Positions 2,795-59,815 of a stretch of 64,000 bases of DNA are shown here, in pieces. The position numbers were made by a program, and so were the translations under genes. Positions within the stretch are counted from its first letter, which is position 1. Every line of letters begins with the position of its first letter. Source of the stretch: Mumia quercus (lineage in GTDB: Bacteria > Actinomycetota > Actinomycetes > Propionibacteriales > Nocardioidaceae); assembly GCF_025506335.1 (NCBI RefSeq), contig NZ_JANZYO010000002.1, positions 296,221 through 360,220 on the forward strand, in the 5' to 3' direction. The notes below the pieces were generated by a model. The model was not told the origin of the DNA. It was given only the letters and a program-made list of their open reading frames with translations, and ran no database searches.

Positions 2795-3370
2795 ATGGCG
2801 GCAGACCTGTCAACGACCTCGTACGCGCTCCTCGGACTGCTCGCGCTCGACCCCGACGACCCTGCGGAGGGACTGACCGGCTACGAGCTCAAGCAGCGCT
2901 GCGACTTCACCATGCGCTACTACTGGGTCTCCCCCGCGACCAGCCAGATCTACACCGAGCTGGCCCGGCTCGACCGCCTCGGGCTCGTCGACGTGACCGA
3001 AGAGGGCACCGGACGCCGCAGCACCCGCCGGTACGCCCTCAGCGACGCCGGACGCGAGCGGCTCCTGACCTGGCTCACCACGAGCGAGCCGGACTTCCCC
3101 GTCCTCAAGCACCCGGTCGCCCTGCGCCTCATGTTCGGCCACATGGTCGAGCCCGAGCAGGTCGAGCGCTGGCTGGCCACCTACATCGCCCAGCTCGAGG
3201 AGCGTACGACCGAGCTGCGGGCCGTACGGGAGATGCTCGGCGACGACGCGCGGCTGCGCTCACCGGCGCGTGTCGCCGAGTGGGGACTCGCCTACTTCGC
3301 CAGCGAGCGCGCGATCTCCGAAGACCTGCGCAAGCAGGTGGCTGACGGTGACGGTGGACCCGTCACGTAG
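2795..3370 (+). CDS. PadR family transcriptional regulator
   Basis: 191 residues starting MAADLSTTSYALLGLLAL. The winged helix covers about 5-95. It has the PadR pattern of SYALLGLLAL followed by GYELKQR, YYWVSPATSQIYTELARLDRLGLV and a wing with RRSTRRYALSDAGRERL. The C-terminal alpha-helical half (about 105-190) is the dimerisation region of the Vir_act_alpha_C type. The ATG at 2795 is chosen because the domain starts there and a -10 box lies six bases upstream. It is divergent from the beta-propeller gene and probably represses it and itself through the palindrome at 2761-2777. Ligand unknown. Confidence 0.92.
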   Translation: MAADLSTTSYALLGLLALDPDDPAEGLTGYELKQRCDFTMRYYWVSPATSQIYTELARLDRLGLVDVTEEGTGRRSTRRYALSDAGRERLLTWLTTSEPDFPVLKHPVALRLMFGHMVEPEQVERWLATYIAQLEERTTELRAVREMLGDDARLRSPARVAEWGLAYFASERAISEDLRKQVADGDGGPVT

Positions 3371-3409: not shown

Positions 3410-4309
3410 GTGGCCCTCATCGCCCTGGCAAGCGCCGCCACCACGACCGACGACCCCGAGATCAAGCTGCTGAGCGAAGCGCTCGTCGCCCTGGGCCACG
3501 AGGTCGGTGTCGAGGTCTGGGACGACCCCGACGTCGACTGGCACCGCTACGCGCTGACGGTCGTGCGGACGACATGGGACTACACGCCGCGCCGCGACGA
3601 GTTCCTCGCGTGGGCGCGACAGGTCCCGCGCCTGCGCAACCGCGCCGACGTGCTCACGTGGAACACCCACAAGACCTACCTGCGCGACCTCGCCGTCCAC
3701 GGCTGCCCGGTGATCCCGACGGCGTGGGACGTAACCGACGAGGAGGCGCTCGCCGCCCACGCGGCCGCGCTCGGGATCGCCGTCGACGACGTCGAGTGGG
3801 TCGTCAAGCCGGCCGTCTCGGCAGGCTCGGCCGACACCGGCCGCTGGGCGGACGCGGCCAGCGCGCTCGCGCACAGCCGCGAGCTGGTCGCCGCCGGGCG
3901 GACCTCCATGCTCCAGCCGTACGTGGCGTCGGTCGACGCGGAGGGCGAGACGGCGCTGCTGTTCGCCGGAGGAGAGTTCTCGCACGCGGTCATGAAGGGC
4001 GCGATGCTCGCGCCCGGTGAGGGTGTGCGCGACAACCGCGACGCCCGCGAGCGCCTCACCCCCACGACGCCGACTGCCGACCAGCTCACCGTGGCCGGGC
4101 AGGCGCTGCGGGCCGCGCGCAAGGCGCTGGGCGGCGGACTCGACCTCCTGTACGCGCGGGTCGACCTCGTCACGGGCGCCGACGGCAAGCCACAGGTCAT
4201 CGAGCTGGAGCTCACGGAGCCGGCACTCTTCCTCCCCTGCGTCGAGGGTGCCGCGGAGACGTTCGCGCGCGCCGTGACCGCGTCGGTGACCTCGATGGGC
4301 CGCGTCTGA
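3410..4309 (+). CDS. ATP-grasp domain protein (RimK/DcsG-like)
   Basis: 299 residues from a GTG with AAGGA about seven bases upstream. ATP-grasp architecture: N-terminal pre-grasp region (1-85), WNTHKTYLRDL (about 84-94), the VVKPAVSAGSADTGRW nucleotide-binding segment (about 131-146), a QPYV strand ahead of the second lobe, and the metal-binding VIELELTEPALF near 263-274. Such enzymes join a carboxylate to an amine or thiol through an acyl phosphate. The closest remembered relatives are RimK/glutathione-synthetase-like and DcsG-like stand-alone proteins. Neither substrate is evident and the neighbours give no pathway clue. Fold confident, reaction unknown. Confidence 0.85.
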   Translation: MALIALASAATTTDDPEIKLLSEALVALGHEVGVEVWDDPDVDWHRYALTVVRTTWDYTPRRDEFLAWARQVPRLRNRADVLTWNTHKTYLRDLAVHGCPVIPTAWDVTDEEALAAHAAALGIAVDDVEWVVKPAVSAGSADTGRWADAASALAHSRELVAAGRTSMLQPYVASVDAEGETALLFAGGEFSHAVMKGAMLAPGEGVRDNRDARERLTPTTPTADQLTVAGQALRAARKALGGGLDLLYARVDLVTGADGKPQVIELELTEPALFLPCVEGAAETFARAVTASVTSMGRV

Positions 4310-4322
4310 CGGAACCCGCCCG

Positions 4323-4328
4323 TACGCT
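4323..4328 (+). promoter_or_regulatory. -10 box of the MpaB-type gene, leaderless start
   Basis: TACGCT, six bases, then the ATG at 4335; no ribosome binding site. The box lies 13 bases after the ATP-grasp stop codon, so this gene probably has its own promoter despite the short gap. Confidence 0.5.
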
Positions 4329-4334
4329 GGCTCC

Positions 4335-5174
4335 ATGAGCGTCCGAGAGGTCCTCGCGGAGGCAGTCTTCTCCCGCGTCGCCGGAGACGACGGCGCGGGC
4401 CGACGTGCGCGCATCCACGGCGACGAGGGGCCGCGACGCTTCGGACCCGACGACCCGATCTGGGCGGTCCACGGCGACGCGTCGATGTTCGTCGGCGGCA
4501 TCCGCGCGCTGCTCCTCCAGTCGCTGCACCCGCTGGCGATGGCGGCGGTGGATCAGCACTCCGGCTACCGGGGCGACCCATGGGGCCGGCTCCAACGCAC
4601 GAGCGGCTTCATCGCCGAGACGACATTCGGCACGGTCGAGACGTCGGAGCGGGCGGTGCGGATCGTCCGGGCGATCCACGGGCGGGTCCGCGGCACGGCA
4701 CCGGACGGGCGACCGTACGCCGCCGACGACCCTCACCTGCTGACGTGGGTGCACGTCGCGGAGGTCGACAGCTTCCTGCGGGCTCACGACCGCTACGGCG
4801 CGCGCCGCCTCAGCCGGTCCGAGCGCGACACCTACGTCGCCCAGGCGGCGGAGGTCGCGTACGCGCTCGGCGCGGACGACCCACCGACCGACACCGACGG
4901 GCTGGCGTCCCGGCTGGAGGCGTTCCGGCCCGAGCTCGCCTCGACGGCGGCCGCCCGTGAGGCGGCGCGGTTCATCTTGCTGACCCCGCCGGTGCCGTGG
5001 TCGCTGCGTCCCGGCTACACGGCGCTCGGCGCGGCCGCCGTCGGCCTGCTGCCGGTGTGGGCGCGCCGACCGCTGCGCCTGCCGTGGCTGCCGATCGTCG
5101 AGGGCACCGCGTTCCGCGCGGCAGGCGGCGCTGCCACGCGGACGATCCGGTGGGCGATGCGGCCGCCGAGCTGA
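4335..5174 (+). CDS. MpaB-type oxygenase (DUF2236)
   Basis: 279 residues. The N-terminal third has the DUF2236 core: DPIWAVHGDASMFVGGIRALLLQSLHPLAM, then HSGYRGDPWGRLQRTSGFI and a FGT segment (about 35-105). This is followed by TWVHVAEVDSFL and a C-terminal helical region with a PWLPIVEG motif. The family includes heme-dependent MpaB and latex-clearing proteins; the HP in QSLHPLAM and the H of WVHV are the likely heme-region histidines. No signal peptide is seen. It ends 3 bp from a convergent dehydrogenase gene. Substrate unknown. Confidence 0.88.
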   Translation: MSVREVLAEAVFSRVAGDDGAGRRARIHGDEGPRRFGPDDPIWAVHGDASMFVGGIRALLLQSLHPLAMAAVDQHSGYRGDPWGRLQRTSGFIAETTFGTVETSERAVRIVRAIHGRVRGTAPDGRPYAADDPHLLTWVHVAEVDSFLRAHDRYGARRLSRSERDTYVAQAAEVAYALGADDPPTDTDGLASRLEAFRPELASTAAAREAARFILLTPPVPWSLRPGYTALGAAAVGLLPVWARRPLRLPWLPIVEGTAFRAAGGAATRTIRWAMRPPS

Positions 5175-29170: not shown

Positions 29171-29216
29171 GACGTCATACGTTCAGCGGGTCGGGACCCC
29201 CGTTGCGTATGACGTC
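29171..29216. repeat. 46-bp palindromic repeat, copy A (imuB-dnaE2 gap)
   Basis: GACGTCATACG and its exact complement flank a 24-base centre containing GGGTC-GG-GACCC. It occupies most of the 85-bp space between imuB and dnaE2. Two further copies with the same ends and the same 24-base spacing are at 56742-56787 and 57796-57841. Within an operon it could form an RNA hairpin that changes expression of dnaE2. Confidence 0.8.
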
Positions 29217-54635: not shown

Positions 54636-54763
54636 GCGCGTGCCTTCCGTGTGGTGCCTGTCGTGACAGTCCTGCTGTCGACGTCGTGGCTACCGAGGGT
54701 AGCGAACACCGTACGGGCGGGACCGAGCGCGTGCGCCACCGGCGGTACCCGATGATGGAGGGC

Positions 54764-56743
54764 ATGGCCGAGACCTGGGCGTACGAGCGTCATCCGAGTG
54801 CGCCGGGGAGCCCGCACCCCCTCGGCGCCCGTCAGGTCGTCTCGGGAGTCAACTTCGCGATCCACGCTCCTCGCGCCCGTCAGGTCGTGCTCGACCTCCC
54901 GGGCGTCGGGGAGTTCGAGGTCGAGTCGCGGACCGGGTCGGTCTGGCACGTCGAGGTCCTCGGGGTGGGGCCCGGGCAGGAGTACGGCTTCGTCGTCGAC
55001 GGGGTCTCCGTGCTCGACCCGTACGCCCTGCACGTGACCGGCGGGCTCGACGGCAACACCTCGCGGCTGCGGGCGTTCGTCGCCGAGACGGCGTTCGACT
55101 GGGGCGCCGACGTCGCGCCGCGGGTGCCCTGGGACCGCACCGTCCTGTACGAGGCGCACGTGCGCGGTCTGACGATGCGTCATCCCGACGTGCCCGAGGA
55201 GCTCCGTGGCACGTACGCCGGGCTGGCGCACCCGGCGGTCCTGGACCACCTCGTCTCGCTCGGCGTGACCACCGTCGAGCTGCTCCCGGTGCACCACTTC
55301 GTCACCGAGCCGACGATCGCCGAGCGCGGCCTCGTGAACTACTGGGGCTACAACTCCGTCTCCTTCCTCGCCCCGCACGCCCCGTACGCCGCCGGCGACG
55401 ACCCCGTCGGCGAGTTCAAGGAGATGGTGCAGGCCCTGCACGCGCGCGGGCTCGAGGTCGTCCTCGACGTCGTCTACAACCACACCGCGGAGGGTGGCCA
55501 GGACGGTCCGCGGATCCACCTGCGGGCGCTGGACGAAACCGGCTACTACCGCCACGCCCAGGGGCACTACTTCGACGTCACAGGCTGCGGCAACACCGTG
55601 CGCGCCGACTCCGCCGCCGCCTCGGCGCTGATCGTGGAGTCGCTGCGCTACTGGGTGCGCGAGATGCATGTGGACGGGTTCCGGTTCGACCTCGCGTCCG
55701 CGCTGGCGCGGGTGGGACGGGGGCGTGTGGACGTCGCGCAGTCGCTGATCGCGACGATCGGGCGCGACCCGGTGCTGCGTGGGGTGAAGCTGATCGCCGA
55801 GCCGTGGGACGCGAGCATGGACGGCTACCTGGTCGGCGGCTACCCGCACGGCTGGGCGGAGTGGAACGACCGCTTCCGCGACGACGTGCGCGACTTCTGG
55901 CGCGGCGCCGCGCACGGGATCGGCGGTGTCGCAGGGATCGCGCGACGCCTGGCGGGGTCGTCGCAGGAGTTCGAGCCGAGCGGACGACCGCCGCAGGCCT
56001 CGGTGAGCTTCGTGACGGCGCACGACGGGTTCTCGCTGCGCGACCTCGTCTCGTACGACGAGAAGCACAACGAGGCCAACCGCGAGGACAACCGCGACGG
56101 CCACACCGACAACCGCTCGTGGAACTGCGGGGTCGAGGGCGAGACCGACGACGTCGGCGTCCTCTCGCTGCGCCGGCGCCAGTCCGCGAACCTCATCGCC
56201 ACCACGCTGCTCGCCGCCGGGGTGCCGATGCTGCGCGCCGGTGACGAGCATGGTCAGACGCAGGACGGCAACAACAACGCGTACTGCCACGACAGCCCGC
56301 TCACGTGGGTCCCGTGGATCCCGGACGTGGGGTGGGAGCACCTCCGCGGCGTCGTCACCCGGCTGACGGCGCTGCGGGCGGAGCACCCGGCGCTGCGGAC
56401 GACCCGGTTCTTCACCGGCGAGGTCTCGGAGCTGACCGGCCGGCAGGACGTCCGCTGGTTGCATCCCGACGGGCGCGACTGGGAGGAGCACGACTGGCAC
56501 GACACGTCGCTGCACCGGCTCGGCATGGCGCTCGACGGCGGACCGGACGAGCGGTGCGCCGTCCTGCTGCTCAACGCCGGTGGCGAGGCGCTGTCCTGGA
56601 CGTTGCCCGGCGCCCCGTGGCCGGACGCGTACGAGGTCGTGCTCGACACCGCCGACCTGGACCGCTGCGGCCCGTTCGACGGCGAGGTCGCCCCGCACTC
56701 CCTCGTGGTCCTGCTCTCCGCGACCCCCACGCCCCTCCCGTAA
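54764..56743 (+). CDS. glgX: Glycogen debranching enzyme GlgX-like
   Basis: 659 residues from the ATG at 54764 (ATG at 54752 also possible). N-terminal CBM48-type domain (HPLGARQVVSGVNFAIHAPRARQVVLDLPG), then the GH13 barrel: VNYWGYNSVSFLAP, VVLDVVYNHTAEGG, nucleophile Asp in VDGFRFDLASALAR, acid Glu in KLIAEPWDAS and third Asp in FVTAHDGFSLRD, DGNNNAYCHDSPL. It removes short alpha-1,6 branches from glycogen-like glucan. Starts a glycogen/trehalose cluster shared with glgE, treS, maltokinase and glgB. Its stop codon lies inside a palindromic repeat. Confidence 0.95.
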   Translation: MAETWAYERHPSAPGSPHPLGARQVVSGVNFAIHAPRARQVVLDLPGVGEFEVESRTGSVWHVEVLGVGPGQEYGFVVDGVSVLDPYALHVTGGLDGNTSRLRAFVAETAFDWGADVAPRVPWDRTVLYEAHVRGLTMRHPDVPEELRGTYAGLAHPAVLDHLVSLGVTTVELLPVHHFVTEPTIAERGLVNYWGYNSVSFLAPHAPYAAGDDPVGEFKEMVQALHARGLEVVLDVVYNHTAEGGQDGPRIHLRALDETGYYRHAQGHYFDVTGCGNTVRADSAAASALIVESLRYWVREMHVDGFRFDLASALARVGRGRVDVAQSLIATIGRDPVLRGVKLIAEPWDASMDGYLVGGYPHGWAEWNDRFRDDVRDFWRGAAHGIGGVAGIARRLAGSSQEFEPSGRPPQASVSFVTAHDGFSLRDLVSYDEKHNEANREDNRDGHTDNRSWNCGVEGETDDVGVLSLRRRQSANLIATTLLAAGVPMLRAGDEHGQTQDGNNNAYCHDSPLTWVPWIPDVGWEHLRGVVTRLTALRAEHPALRTTRFFTGEVSELTGRQDVRWLHPDGRDWEEHDWHDTSLHRLGMALDGGPDERCAVLLLNAGGEALSWTLPGAPWPDAYEVVLDTADLDRCGPFDGEVAPHSLVVLLSATPTPLP

Positions 56744-56787
56744 CGTCATGCGTTCTGAGGGTCGGAGCCCGCAGGACGTATGACGTC
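56742..56787. repeat. 46-bp palindromic repeat, copy B (glgX/DUF559 3' ends)
   Basis: Same ends and spacing as copy A, with two changes in the left arm (AACGTCATGCG). It contains the last bases of glgX and the stop plus the last 13 codons of the DUF559 gene. Positions 56767-56790 are identical to 57821-57844 of copy C, in the same orientation. As a hairpin between convergent genes it could also terminate transcription. Confidence 0.8.
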
Positions 56788-57729
56788 CGGAGGGGTCCAC
56801 CCGCCGGCGACGAGCGCCTCGACGATCTGCCCGAAGAAGGCGTCCACCGCCACGCGCAGGCCGAGCAGAGGGAGCCGGAGCACCGTCGCGTCGCGCAGCG
56901 TCACCGCGTTGTGGCGCAGCGCGTCGTTGACGAGGTTCTGCGCGAACGCGTGGTGGATGCCGTCGATCTCGACGACGACCGCGAACGCCTCCCAGACGAC
57001 GTCGAGGTAGATCCGGCCGTCGCGTCCCCGCCGTACGACCTGTCGATCCGGCTCGGGCAGACCGCGCCGGCGCGCCATCCCGGCGAAGTCGAGCTCACCG
57101 AGCGACTGCGCCCCGCCGATGAGGTCCAGCACGATCATCTCCACGAAGCGTCGACGGCGGTCGCGTCGCACGTCGAGCAGCGCGGCCCCGATCCGTTCGG
57201 CCGTCGTGAGCCGCTGCTGGACGACCATCGCGAGCAGCGTCGCCGCCTCCCGATCCGTGCGCGCCCACAACGCTCCCCGTACGGCGGCGATCCAGGGCCA
57301 GACGCGCGGAATCCCGGCGCCGACACGGTCGGACGGACGCAGCCGCCTCGTCTGCCGGATGTCGATCCCCGCGATCTTCACGACCCGGGCCCCACGCGGC
57401 ACCGACACCCGTACGGCGGGGATCGTGAACCCCGTGAGCCCCGCGGCGACGAGGGCGCTGACCCCGTCGAGGACGCCGCGTGCTCCGGCCTCGATGACCG
57501 CGTGCCACAGCATCGCGTCGCCTGCGAGGTCACCGGTGTGGACAGCGATGGTCTGGCGCCCGTGCAACCTCCACCGCTGCGCCCTCAGCTCCGCGTCGAC
57601 CTCCCAACGACTGAGCCCCATCCCGTACAGCTGTCGGCGGGACAGAACCCCGTCCTGCGTCTGCGCCTCGCGCCCTACCCGACGGCGCCGCGCGCGCCGT
57701 ACCTCGTCCCTCGTCATCTGCTGGTGCAT
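56746..57729 (-). CDS. DUF559 endonuclease-like protein with AbiEi-type N-terminus
   Basis: 327 residues from the ATG at 57729 (ATG at 57717 possible). The N-terminal part (about 15-60, QDGVLSRRQLYGMGLSRWEVDAELRAQRWRLHGRQTIAVH) resembles the winged helix of AbiEi-like proteins. The C-terminal DUF559 domain (about 225-315) has a PD-(D/E)xK/Vsr-like pattern: Asp in YLDVVWEAFAVVVEIDGIHHA followed by N-DALRHN and a final strand. Nuclease activity is a family-level guess. The last 13 residues (DVIRPAGSDPQNA) are encoded by a palindromic repeat, and a second copy lies 67 bp upstream of the start. It separates glgX from glgE. Confidence 0.85.
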   Translation of the reverse strand: MHQQMTRDEVRRARRRRVGREAQTQDGVLSRRQLYGMGLSRWEVDAELRAQRWRLHGRQTIAVHTGDLAGDAMLWHAVIEAGARGVLDGVSALVAAGLTGFTIPAVRVSVPRGARVVKIAGIDIRQTRRLRPSDRVGAGIPRVWPWIAAVRGALWARTDREAATLLAMVVQQRLTTAERIGAALLDVRRDRRRRFVEMIVLDLIGGAQSLGELDFAGMARRRGLPEPDRQVVRRGRDGRIYLDVVWEAFAVVVEIDGIHHAFAQNLVNDALRHNAVTLRDATVLRLPLLGLRVAVDAFFGQIVEALVAGGWTPPDVIRPAGSDPQNA

Positions 57730-57795
57730 GCCGTGAGCGTGTGTCCGCCAAGACCCTGCGGGCTCGTCTACGCCACCACCTGTGGACGACGCCAG

Positions 57796-57841
57796 GACGT
57801 CATACGAATCGGTGGTCCCCGCCCGCAGGACGTATGACGTC
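57796..57841. repeat. 46-bp palindromic repeat, copy C (upstream of DUF559 and glgE)
   Basis: Perfect GACGTCATACG/CGTATGACGTC ends around 24 bases. It lies in the divergent region between the DUF559 gene start and the glgE promoter, ending 29 bases before the glgE -10 box. Its right half is identical over 24 bases to copy B. Confidence 0.85.
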
Positions 57842-57870
57842 CGGGCGAGAGGGGCGGGGGCCAGGTCGGA

Positions 57871-57883: not shown

Positions 57884-59815
57884 ATGCTGCGTATCCCAGT
57901 GATGGACGTGTGCCCGGTCGTCGAGCACGGGGAGTACGCCGCGAAGGCGACGGTCGGCGAGCCGTTCCCGATCCGTGCGCGCATCTTCCGCGAGGGCCAC
58001 GACGACCTCGGCGCCGGCGTCGTGCTGACCGGCCCGGACGGCAAGGAGCGGCCGCTGCTCGCGCTCCCCCACCTCGACAACGACCACCACGAGCTGTGGG
58101 TGACCCTCGACGAGGTCGGCCCCTGGTCGTACCGCATCGAGACCTGGTCGGACCCGTACGGCACGTGGCTGCACGACGCGCCGATCAAGGTCGCCGCCGA
58201 CGTCGACGCCGAGCTGATGCCGGTCGAGGGCGCGCTGCTGCTCGAGCGCGCCGCCACGGCTCTCCCCCGCGGGCGGACCGCCGAGCGCGCGACGTTGCGC
58301 ACGGCCGCCAAGATCCTGCGTGACAAGAACCGTCCTCCCGCCGAGCGCCTGGAGGCCGCGACCACGCCTGAGGTGCTAGAGGTGATGAGCCGGTTCCCGC
58401 TGCGCGACCTGCTCGGCAGCACGGCGGCGTACCCGCTCTTCGCCGACCGGGAGCGCGCCCTCGCGGGCGCCTGGTACGAGCTGTTCCCCCGCTCGTACGG
58501 CGGGTTGCGCGCGGCGGTCGGCGAGCTGGACCGCGTGGCCGCGATGGGGTTCGACGTCGTCTACCTGCCGCCGATCCACCCGATCGGACGGGTCAACCGC
58601 AAGGGGCGCAACAACGCGCTCGTCGCCGAGCCGGGCGACCCTGGCTCGCCGTGGGCGATCGGCGCTGCGGAGGGAGGCCACGACGCCGTGCACCCCGAGC
58701 TCGGCACCCTCGAGGACCTCGACGCGTTCGTCGCCGCGACCCGCGAGCGCGGGATGGAGGTGGCGCTCGACCTGGCGCTGCAGTGCGCGCCCGACCACCC
58801 CTGGGTCAAGGCGCACCCCGAGTGGTTCACCCACCGCGCCGACGGCACGATCGCGTACGCGGAGAACCCGCCGAAGAAGTACCAGGACATCTACCCGCTC
58901 AACTTCGACACCGACCCCGACGGCCTGTACGAGGAGGTGCTGCGGGTCGTGCGTCACTGGATGGCGCACGGGATCCGGATCTTCCGCGTCGACAACCCGC
59001 ACACCAAACCGGTGCCGTTCTGGGAGCGGCTCCTCGCCGAGGTGCGCCGCACCGACCCCGACGTCGTGTTCCTCGCCGAGGCGTTCACCCGGCCGGCGAT
59101 GATGCGCGCGCTCGGCACGGTCGGCTTCCACCAGTCGTACACGTACTTCACGTGGCGCGAGACCAAGGAGGAGCTCGAGGCGTACCTCGAAGAGGTCTCC
59201 GGCCGCAAGGCGGCGGTGATGCGTCCCGCGTTCTGGGTGAACACGCCCGACATCCTCCCCGTGCACCTCCAGACCGGCGATCCGGCGATGTTCCGGCTGC
59301 GTGCCGTGCTGGCCGCGACCGGGGCACCGACGTGGGGCATGTACTCGGGCTTCGAGATCCTCGAGCACACCCCGCTGCGCCCGGGGTCGGAGGAGTATCT
59401 CGACTCGGAGAAGTACGAGGTCAAGCACCGTGACTTCGACGTCCCGCAGTCGCTGGCACCGTTCGTCGCCCGGCTCAACGAGATCCGGCGCGAGCACCCG
59501 GCGCTGCGCCAGCTGCACCGGCTGCGCGTGCACGAGACGGAGTCGGACCAGATCCTGTGCTTCTCCCGGCGACACCTCGACGAGAGCGGTCCGGAGGTGC
59601 GCGACGACGTGGTGATCGTGGTCGCCAACCTGGAGCCGTCGCTCACCCACGAGACGACCGTCCACCTCGACCTCCCGGCGCTCGGGATCGGGTGGGGTGA
59701 ACGGTTCACCGTCCGCGACGAGCTGACCGGTGAGGTGTTCGAGTGGGGCGAGGACGACTACGTGAAGCTCGGCGGCGACTCCCCCGTCGCGCACGTGCTG
59801 ACCGTCGTGCGCTGA
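57884..59815 (+). CDS. glgE: Alpha-1,4-glucan:maltose-1-phosphate maltosyltransferase
   Basis: 643 residues from the ATG at 57884, beginning MLRIPVMDVCPVVEHGEYAAKATVGE as GlgE proteins do. N-terminal domain N and helical insert S (about 115-185), then a GH13_3 barrel with GFDVVYLPPIHPIGRVNRKGRNN, ALQCAPDHPWVKAHPEWF, nucleophile Asp in IRIFRVDNPHTKPVPFWE and Glu in VVFLAEAFTRP. FWVNTPDILPVHLQ and GMYSGFEILEH complete the family pattern. It extends glucan with maltosyl units from maltose-1-phosphate made by the downstream TreS-maltokinase pair. Confidence 0.96.
   Translation: MLRIPVMDVCPVVEHGEYAAKATVGEPFPIRARIFREGHDDLGAGVVLTGPDGKERPLLALPHLDNDHHELWVTLDEVGPWSYRIETWSDPYGTWLHDAPIKVAADVDAELMPVEGALLLERAATALPRGRTAERATLRTAAKILRDKNRPPAERLEAATTPEVLEVMSRFPLRDLLGSTAAYPLFADRERALAGAWYELFPRSYGGLRAAVGELDRVAAMGFDVVYLPPIHPIGRVNRKGRNNALVAEPGDPGSPWAIGAAEGGHDAVHPELGTLEDLDAFVAATRERGMEVALDLALQCAPDHPWVKAHPEWFTHRADGTIAYAENPPKKYQDIYPLNFDTDPDGLYEEVLRVVRHWMAHGIRIFRVDNPHTKPVPFWERLLAEVRRTDPDVVFLAEAFTRPAMMRALGTVGFHQSYTYFTWRETKEELEAYLEEVSGRKAAVMRPAFWVNTPDILPVHLQTGDPAMFRLRAVLAATGAPTWGMYSGFEILEHTPLRPGSEEYLDSEKYEVKHRDFDVPQSLAPFVARLNEIRREHPALRQLHRLRVHETESDQILCFSRRHLDESGPEVRDDVVIVVANLEPSLTHETTVHLDLPALGIGWGERFTVRDELTGEVFEWGEDDYVKLGGDSPVAHVLTVVR

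Follow-up and report, generated by a model that had tools for sequence, protein, structure and literature searches.

A dispersed 44-nt palindrome linked to an AbiEi-DUF559 gene in Mumia quercus and related actinobacteria

Background

Short palindromes dispersed between genes, a dedicated gene lying between copies, a repeat type tied to that gene and a patchy distribution together characterize repetitive extragenic palindromes (REPs) and their REP-associated tyrosine transposases (RAYTs), according to the available text of a published account (PMC3733652). We analyzed a 64,000-nucleotide stretch of the Mumia quercus genome (contig NZ_JANZYO010000002.1, positions 296,221 to 360,220 of the forward strand), hereafter the window, in which a cassette of approximately 1.1 kb, located between glgX and glgE, consists of a gene for an AbiEi-like and DUF559/Vsr-like protein flanked by two copies of a 44-nt palindrome. 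There is strong support for a linked system of gene and palindrome which, at a defined site, occurs or is missing as a whole. We consider it probable that this is a REP/RAYT-like system in which a PD-(D/E)XK-type protein takes the place of the Y1 transposase.

REP/RAYT systems (TnpA-REP, the GTAG superfamily, REPtrons) share with the window system dispersed and mainly intergenic copies, a dedicated gene flanked by copies, and a repeat type that follows the gene. However, the RAYT partner is an HUH Y1 transposase, whereas the partner in the window is an AbiEi-DUF559/PD-(D/E)XK-type protein. The GTAG tag was not found in the window system, which has a full palindrome of fixed length whose arms are symmetric. 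The system appears to work like REP/RAYT but is no member of that group, as it lacks both the transposase and the tag that define REP/RAYT systems. The arms of the window system often start with aCGTCAT, resembling the tag of CGTC-tagged REPs followed by AT. Those REPs have an unpaired tag at one end, a short tail and a stem of 8-9 bp, whereas the tag of the window system is paired, occurs at both ends, lacks a CCA tail and belongs to a stem of up to 20 bp. A published survey, in its available text, reports CGTC repeats in five phyla and does not name actinobacteria.

Other described systems share single features with the window. Escherichia coli YcjD and the BoxC/PIT/triplex repeats combine a small DUF559 protein with similar-looking GC-rich repeats, but the repeat sequence differs and no AbiEi domain was seen. 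Triplex/BoxC motifs occur in more than 260 genomes, and those of E. coli are described, in the portion of the report available, as having no transposase or integrase remnants around them (PMC4666352). Vsr and the EDxHD homing endonucleases belong to the same nuclease superfamily as the window protein; a DUF559-containing intein gene has been placed in the EDxHD family, which provides a precedent for a Vsr-like nuclease in mobility, as far as the available text goes (PMC9403480). A homing enzyme cuts one allelic site, whereas the palindromes of the window system are dispersed over many sites. Miniature inverted-repeat transposable elements and transposons with terminal inverted repeats are alike in having inverted-repeat ends around a gene and further copies free of it; they differ in that each end of the window system is a complete palindrome and that no target-site duplication was found. 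A search of the open-access literature, mainly of titles and abstracts and with subscription papers and preprints outside its scope, found no link between DUF559 and palindromic repeats, and the enzyme type of the window system was not linked to such repeats in the literature that the search covered. For many bacterial palindromic repeats no mover is known, and the window system offers a candidate enzyme. Such an enzyme would suggest what DUF559, listed in Pfam as a domain of unknown function, may do.

Results

The palindrome occurs three times in the window, with no strand assigned. Copy B (56743-56786) lies at the glgX stop codon and contains the stop codon of the DUF559 gene, copy C (57797-57840) lies between the divergently oriented DUF559 gene and glgE, and the solitary copy A (29172-29215) is intergenic, with an IMS-family (imuB-like) gene on one side and a gene for an error-prone DNA polymerase on the other. 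The original prediction had described B and C as 46-bp palindromes flanking the gene, with 24 identical bases in direct orientation 1054 bp apart. Both copies were recovered, with starts separated by that same distance, as was the plus-strand identity of 56767-56790 with 57821-57844, and the unit is better described as a 44-nt core.

This unit has the fixed form ACGTCATACG-N10-N4-N10-CGTATGACGT, in which the stem can reach 20 bp and the loop has 4 nt; the outer arms are almost invariant and the inner stems variable. Folded with a few flanking bases, the window copies were 4.0-5.6 standard deviations below dinucleotide shuffles. When a covariance model trained on 11 copies was run over the 4.1-Mb genome, 16 places fit it, each across all 44 positions, and 13 of the hairpin copies fall outside the window, mostly between other genes. 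Among 11 of the genome's own copies, 85.9% of cells were paired, which was equalled in 7 of 500 shuffles, and 3 of 500 shuffles attained the covariation score. Other genomes supplied 126 distinct hairpins, selected by their exact outer arms, in which all ten inner pairs were Watson-Crick more often than expected under independence, by an excess of 0.02-0.32 (0.68 versus 0.36 for columns 17/28, for example) that includes the effect of shared descent. Searching with the reversed pattern, the control for hairpin counts, gave zero in each of 245 genomes; the copy number of the palindrome is far beyond chance. Nothing in the window matched Rfam at the gathering threshold. When public genomes were scanned for the exact outer arms, at least 117 stretches matched (hereafter the 117 hairpin loci), and the titles among the 80 matches listed were all Nocardioides, Marmoricola or Aeromicrobium. 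The flanks in these loci lengthen the palindrome as CGGG...CCCG.

Hairpin number follows the presence of the gene across the family. The family set consisted of 245 genomes, in which the subfamily gene was called at E ≤ 1e-75, giving 79 positives. Hairpin counts covered two arm types only and included gene-adjacent copies, for which reason the threshold was set above two, at three or more. At least three hairpins were present in 65 of the 79 gene-positive genomes versus 26 of the 166 gene-negative genomes (Fisher 2.6e-24), with medians of 10 and 0, respectively, and at most 83 hairpins per genome where counted. Within genera, the corresponding fractions were 51/57 versus 18/62 in g7, 7/7 versus 3/17 in g5, 3/10 versus 0/39 in g20 and 2/2 versus 0/4 in g1. 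A tblastn search of the 117 hairpin loci with the window protein gave ten matches, all within approximately 250 bp of a hairpin; they represent nine genes, because two of the matches are halves of one gene on one contig.

To look at gene flanks independently of the known arms, approximately 3 kb on either side of 89 subfamily genes (three stretches being shortened by contig ends) was surveyed for 44-bp palindromes of no presupposed sequence. Under a strict rule, by which a palindrome must lie within 400 bp of the gene, 55 of the 89 genes had one (23 on both sides) and 34 had none, and palindrome density was 100 in 151 kb near genes versus 17 in 458 kb elsewhere. A scored rule, set at the 99th percentile of 1233 control windows (a score of 24 in other genomes), found 78 of the 89 genes flanked on at least one side and 39 on both. 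When lengths of 34-60 were scanned, strong enrichment was seen at even lengths only, with the count maximal at 44 and the near/far ratio at 46. Measured from the matched region, the median distance of the palindromes was approximately 149 bp on the upstream side and 21 bp on the downstream side. They start mostly with ACGT or GCGT, and their arm types include ACGTCATACG, ..TCCG, ..TTCG, ..TGCG, ..TGGC, GCGTCATACG, ACGTGTGACG and ACGTCCTGCC.

The two palindromes of a gene match each other. Arms agreed at 19 or more of 20 positions in 36 of 39 same-gene pairs versus 225 of 1482 between-gene pairs, and interior identity averaged 18.8/24 within a gene versus 10.0/24 between genes. Arm distance grows with protein distance (Mantel r 0.26, reached in 0 of 2000 permutations, n = 79). 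Ten genomes carry more than one gene, and in three of them (G153, G163 and G187) two genes each have both flanks; there, the arms are the same on either side of one gene and different between genes. Copies of the TGGC type numbered 3-30 in eight genomes, chosen by eye from the flank survey, whose gene has TGGC or TGGT arms. Among the 49 other gene-positive genomes of that genus, at least three copies were found in seven and at least ten in none, with the qualification that G201 (six copies) has TGGC-type palindromes by its gene and was yet tallied among these others. Among the 62 gene-negative genomes of the genus, two had at least three copies, one of them ten (G067). The reversed-pattern control for this type was zero in every genome. 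The link between repeat and DUF559 genes, which the original prediction had marked for checking, is borne out by hairpin number across the 245 genomes and by arm sequence, which tracks gene lineage.

At the glgX-glgE site the cassette is either complete or missing. Among the six genomes of the genus set (G000-G005), it is present in G000 and G003 and missing from G001, G002, G004 and G005, where a gap of approximately 30-60 bp holds neither gene nor hairpin. The subfamily gene was found only in G000 (513 bits) and G003 (508 bits), the next profile match in the six genomes scoring 164 bits. Hairpins number 15 in G000 and 24 in G003 versus 0, 0, 0 and 1 in the other four, and the model search agrees. 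Solitary hairpin A is likewise present in G003 and absent from G001, G002, G004 and G005, and all three window hairpins are shared with G003. Of 12 hairpin loci outside the window (two of them overlapping) that were compared with the 19 of G003, four align over most of their length and a fifth over no more than 378 bp. A mobile cassette had been proposed, along with relatives showing an empty site that retains one repeat. Filled and empty sites are both seen, but all four empty sites hold no repeat at all, and movement by a dedicated protein is something that we infer. Neither of the two outcomes that would have refuted the prediction, repeats scattered with no tie to DUF559 genes and a lack of empty sites in relatives, was observed.

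The predicted location between glgX (54686-56743, plus strand, start codon uncertain) and glgE (57884-59815, plus strand) holds, both neighbors being confirmed by hidden Markov models. Across 90 genes there are some 26 neighbor groups, including glgX/glgE, site-2-type protease/ispG and pstB/phosphate transporter, in which all names except glgX and glgE were assigned by inspection. This number is approximate because neighbor groups, like the gene contexts of hairpins, rest on a crude open reading frame (ORF) picker that can choose shadow frames.

The gene itself (P0001, 56746-57729, minus strand) encodes a protein of 327 aa with an AbiEi-like N-terminal domain and a DUF559/Vsr-like PD-(D/E)XK C-terminal domain. 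Its TGA stop codon falls within palindrome B, which supplies it. PADLOC AbiEi models matched all 28 aligned subfamily members, the window protein included, and Pfam DUF559 (PF04480) matched 19 of the 28 at E ≤ 0.01 (best 4.9e-7). The window protein falls outside these 19; taken alone, it scored 14.4 bits against DUF559, under the curated cut-off of 20.6. PRK09767 of NCBIfam, which we take to be the YcjD model, was matched by 10 of the 28. Residues E212, D243, E254, D256 and H260 are invariant across the 28-sequence alignment, and such acidic and histidine residues would suit a catalytic role in a PD-(D/E)XK-type fold. In scans of Pfam, NCBIfam and PADLOC, AbiEi and DUF559 models matched and no Y1 transposase model did. 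The locus does not have the gene pair of an AbiE toxin-antitoxin system, as no AbiEii gene adjoins and the neighbors are glgX and glgE.

Hairpins are found predominantly outside genes, with 11 of 112 inside an ORF versus 273 of 345 random positions, and they lie in convergent versus divergent gaps at 36 versus 15, as compared with 15 versus 20 for random positions. One locus in Nocardioides sp. GY 10127 (L030, 3322-3861) contains tandem hairpin-like units with a 62-bp period.

Discussion

The linkage of gene and hairpin, the lineage-specific matching of their sequences and the presence or absence of the whole cassette are observed directly. The reading we favor is a REP/RAYT-like one, in which a cassette of approximately 1.1 kb, a nuclease-type gene between two palindromes of its own, would be accompanied by a dispersed palindrome population. 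The AbiEi-like N-terminal domain might recognize the conserved outer arms of a hairpin that is extruded as a cruciform or forms on single-stranded DNA, and the Vsr-like domain could nick the hairpin or the DNA nearby. Repair or template switching would then copy the palindrome, or the whole cassette, to another, mostly intergenic, site with no target duplication.

A different reading takes the palindromes to be binding or self-recognition sites (operator, immunity or loading sites) of a defense or repair nuclease, which autoregulation would keep close to the gene and selection, rather than mobilization, would spread. AbiEi-type domains are antitoxin-like regulators, and in this respect the PADLOC AbiEi matches to all 28 aligned proteins and the position of the palindromes directly before and behind the gene speak for such sites. 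So does a Caulobacter DUF559 protein that is needed in the DNA-damage response of a methylase mutant and has been proposed to act in a Vsr-like manner, according to the available text of the report (PMC12907096). An operator, however, leaves unexplained the matching second copy at the stop codon, the 13 mostly intergenic copies outside the window, the clean empty sites and the paralogue-specific arms that agree on both flanks. The genes adjoining the cassette are glgX and glgE, and an AbiEii gene is not among them, which also counts against this reading. We regard binding sites as an unlikely explanation of the whole pattern. Slightly less credit still is given to the idea that the palindromes were amplified independently, as terminator- or REP-like elements through host replication or repair, and that the gene is a passenger recombining between copies. 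The intergenic position of the hairpins, their enrichment in convergent gaps, the existence of hairpin-rich gene-negative genomes and the tandem array in L030, which represents local amplification, fit this idea. Tracking of the arm lineage is not what one expects of a passenger, nor is the recurrence of the DUF559 domain beside unrelated palindromes in Proteobacteria, Deinococcus and other DUF559 genes of G005. A plain terminator as the entire explanation was rejected, because copy C sits between divergent genes and the arms follow the gene. Actinobacteria commonly have both DUF559 genes and palindromes, and a frequent repeat might by coincidence flank a frequent gene. This is extremely improbable: all ten gene matches in the 117 hairpin loci lie close to a hairpin, the reversed pattern gives zero in all 245 genomes and the two flanks match each other. 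At the level of the family survey, chance was rejected (65/79 versus 26/166 genomes with at least three hairpins).

Several observations weigh against the REP/RAYT-like reading that we prefer. That the protein binds, cuts and moves DNA is the conditional part of that reading. At least ten hairpins but no detected subfamily gene were found in nine genomes (G018, G039, G047, G067, G115, G118, G132, G182 and G221), and candidate readings of them are orphans, lost genes or assembly gaps. Conversely, seven gene-positive genomes carry neither of the two counted arm types; in six of these a 44-bp palindrome with other arms lies close to the gene, and in G063, the seventh, the palindrome is unusual. 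Within its own genus, the association has n = 6 and Fisher 0.067 when taken alone. The correlation between arms and proteins is modest (Mantel r 0.26), with shared descent contributing, and window copy C scores 23, just below the 24 applied elsewhere. The TGGC type belongs largely to one fixed locus, and in G095 two of its three copies are gene-adjacent. Of five covariation measures computed on the genome's own set of 11 copies, two were not above shuffles, namely pairs changed on both sides (387 of 500 shuffles) and further pair types (103 of 500 shuffles). Matching flank words of 2-8 bases, sought around 128 hairpins as a sign of target-site duplication, showed no clear excess. Finally, six of eight more distant DUF559 homologues were without a flanking 44-bp palindrome (scores 17-20), and the two that have such palindromes, both in G005, score 28/28 and 24/23. 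Certain DUF559 lineages, and not the whole group, show the link with palindromes.

The DUF559 cases outside the window suggest a general class of palindrome-linked genes. On a tentative view, which we hold with some reserve, DUF559/Vsr-like proteins would constitute a second, independent class of palindrome mobilizers parallel to RAYTs, whose lineages in Actinobacteria, Proteobacteria and Deinococcota spread their own repeat families, including the triplex/BoxC repeats with E. coli YcjD. The arms of the two G005 palindrome pairs (L292 and L296) begin with CGTCTCGACAT.. and AGACCAGACAT.. and are unrelated to the window arms.

A search of a plasmid collection with a generic small DUF559 bait returned 23 records, 14 of which were compared. 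In 12 of these 14 loci (Proteobacteria, Deinococcus), palindromes of the CTCTCCCC type lie within 250 bp of the small DUF559 gene, the 14 being not independent (four Azospirillum, four Deinococcus, two Sinorhizobium, two plasmids of one Sphingomonas strain, one Shinella and one E. coli). Density of this type was 27 in 12.1 kb near genes versus 1 in 75.9 kb farther out, and in seven of the 14 loci the palindromes flank the gene on both sides or overlap its annotated ends. Small DUF559 genes were also seen inside metabolic clusters (sufB/sufC, paaD/paaZ and hpa; L306, L309, L310, L311 and L313, near 2940-3360), where they are bordered by CTCTCCCC- or CTCCCCC-type palindromes. DUF559 as the partner of CGTC REPs in alphaproteobacteria was considered and is unsupported: no CGTC repeats were seen by eye at the alphaproteobacterial plasmid loci, which show CTCTCCCC-type palindromes.

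The small DUF559 protein of E. coli is YcjD, and GC-rich repeats lie downstream of ycjD, a gene located between sapF and fabI (L327, 1757-2340, in E. coli DH1). The E. coli ycjD locus did not show a CTCTCCCC-type palindrome under the rule of the plasmid-collection survey. Of 5426 E. coli genomes, 3361 contain 80% or more of the stretch around ycjD that served as query. The idea of a clean empty site at this locus was rejected, as both ycjD-less strains examined hold efflux genes there. As a relative of the window gene, ycjD brings the general idea within reach of testing in E. coli. A plasmid search with the C-terminal part of the window protein gave three records, the best at E 0.08. A homologue 48.8% identical to the window protein is encoded at 3694-4530 of phage-collection record MT837139.1, a 7.6-kb faecal 'Bacteriophage sp.' sequence that is perhaps a bacterial contig.

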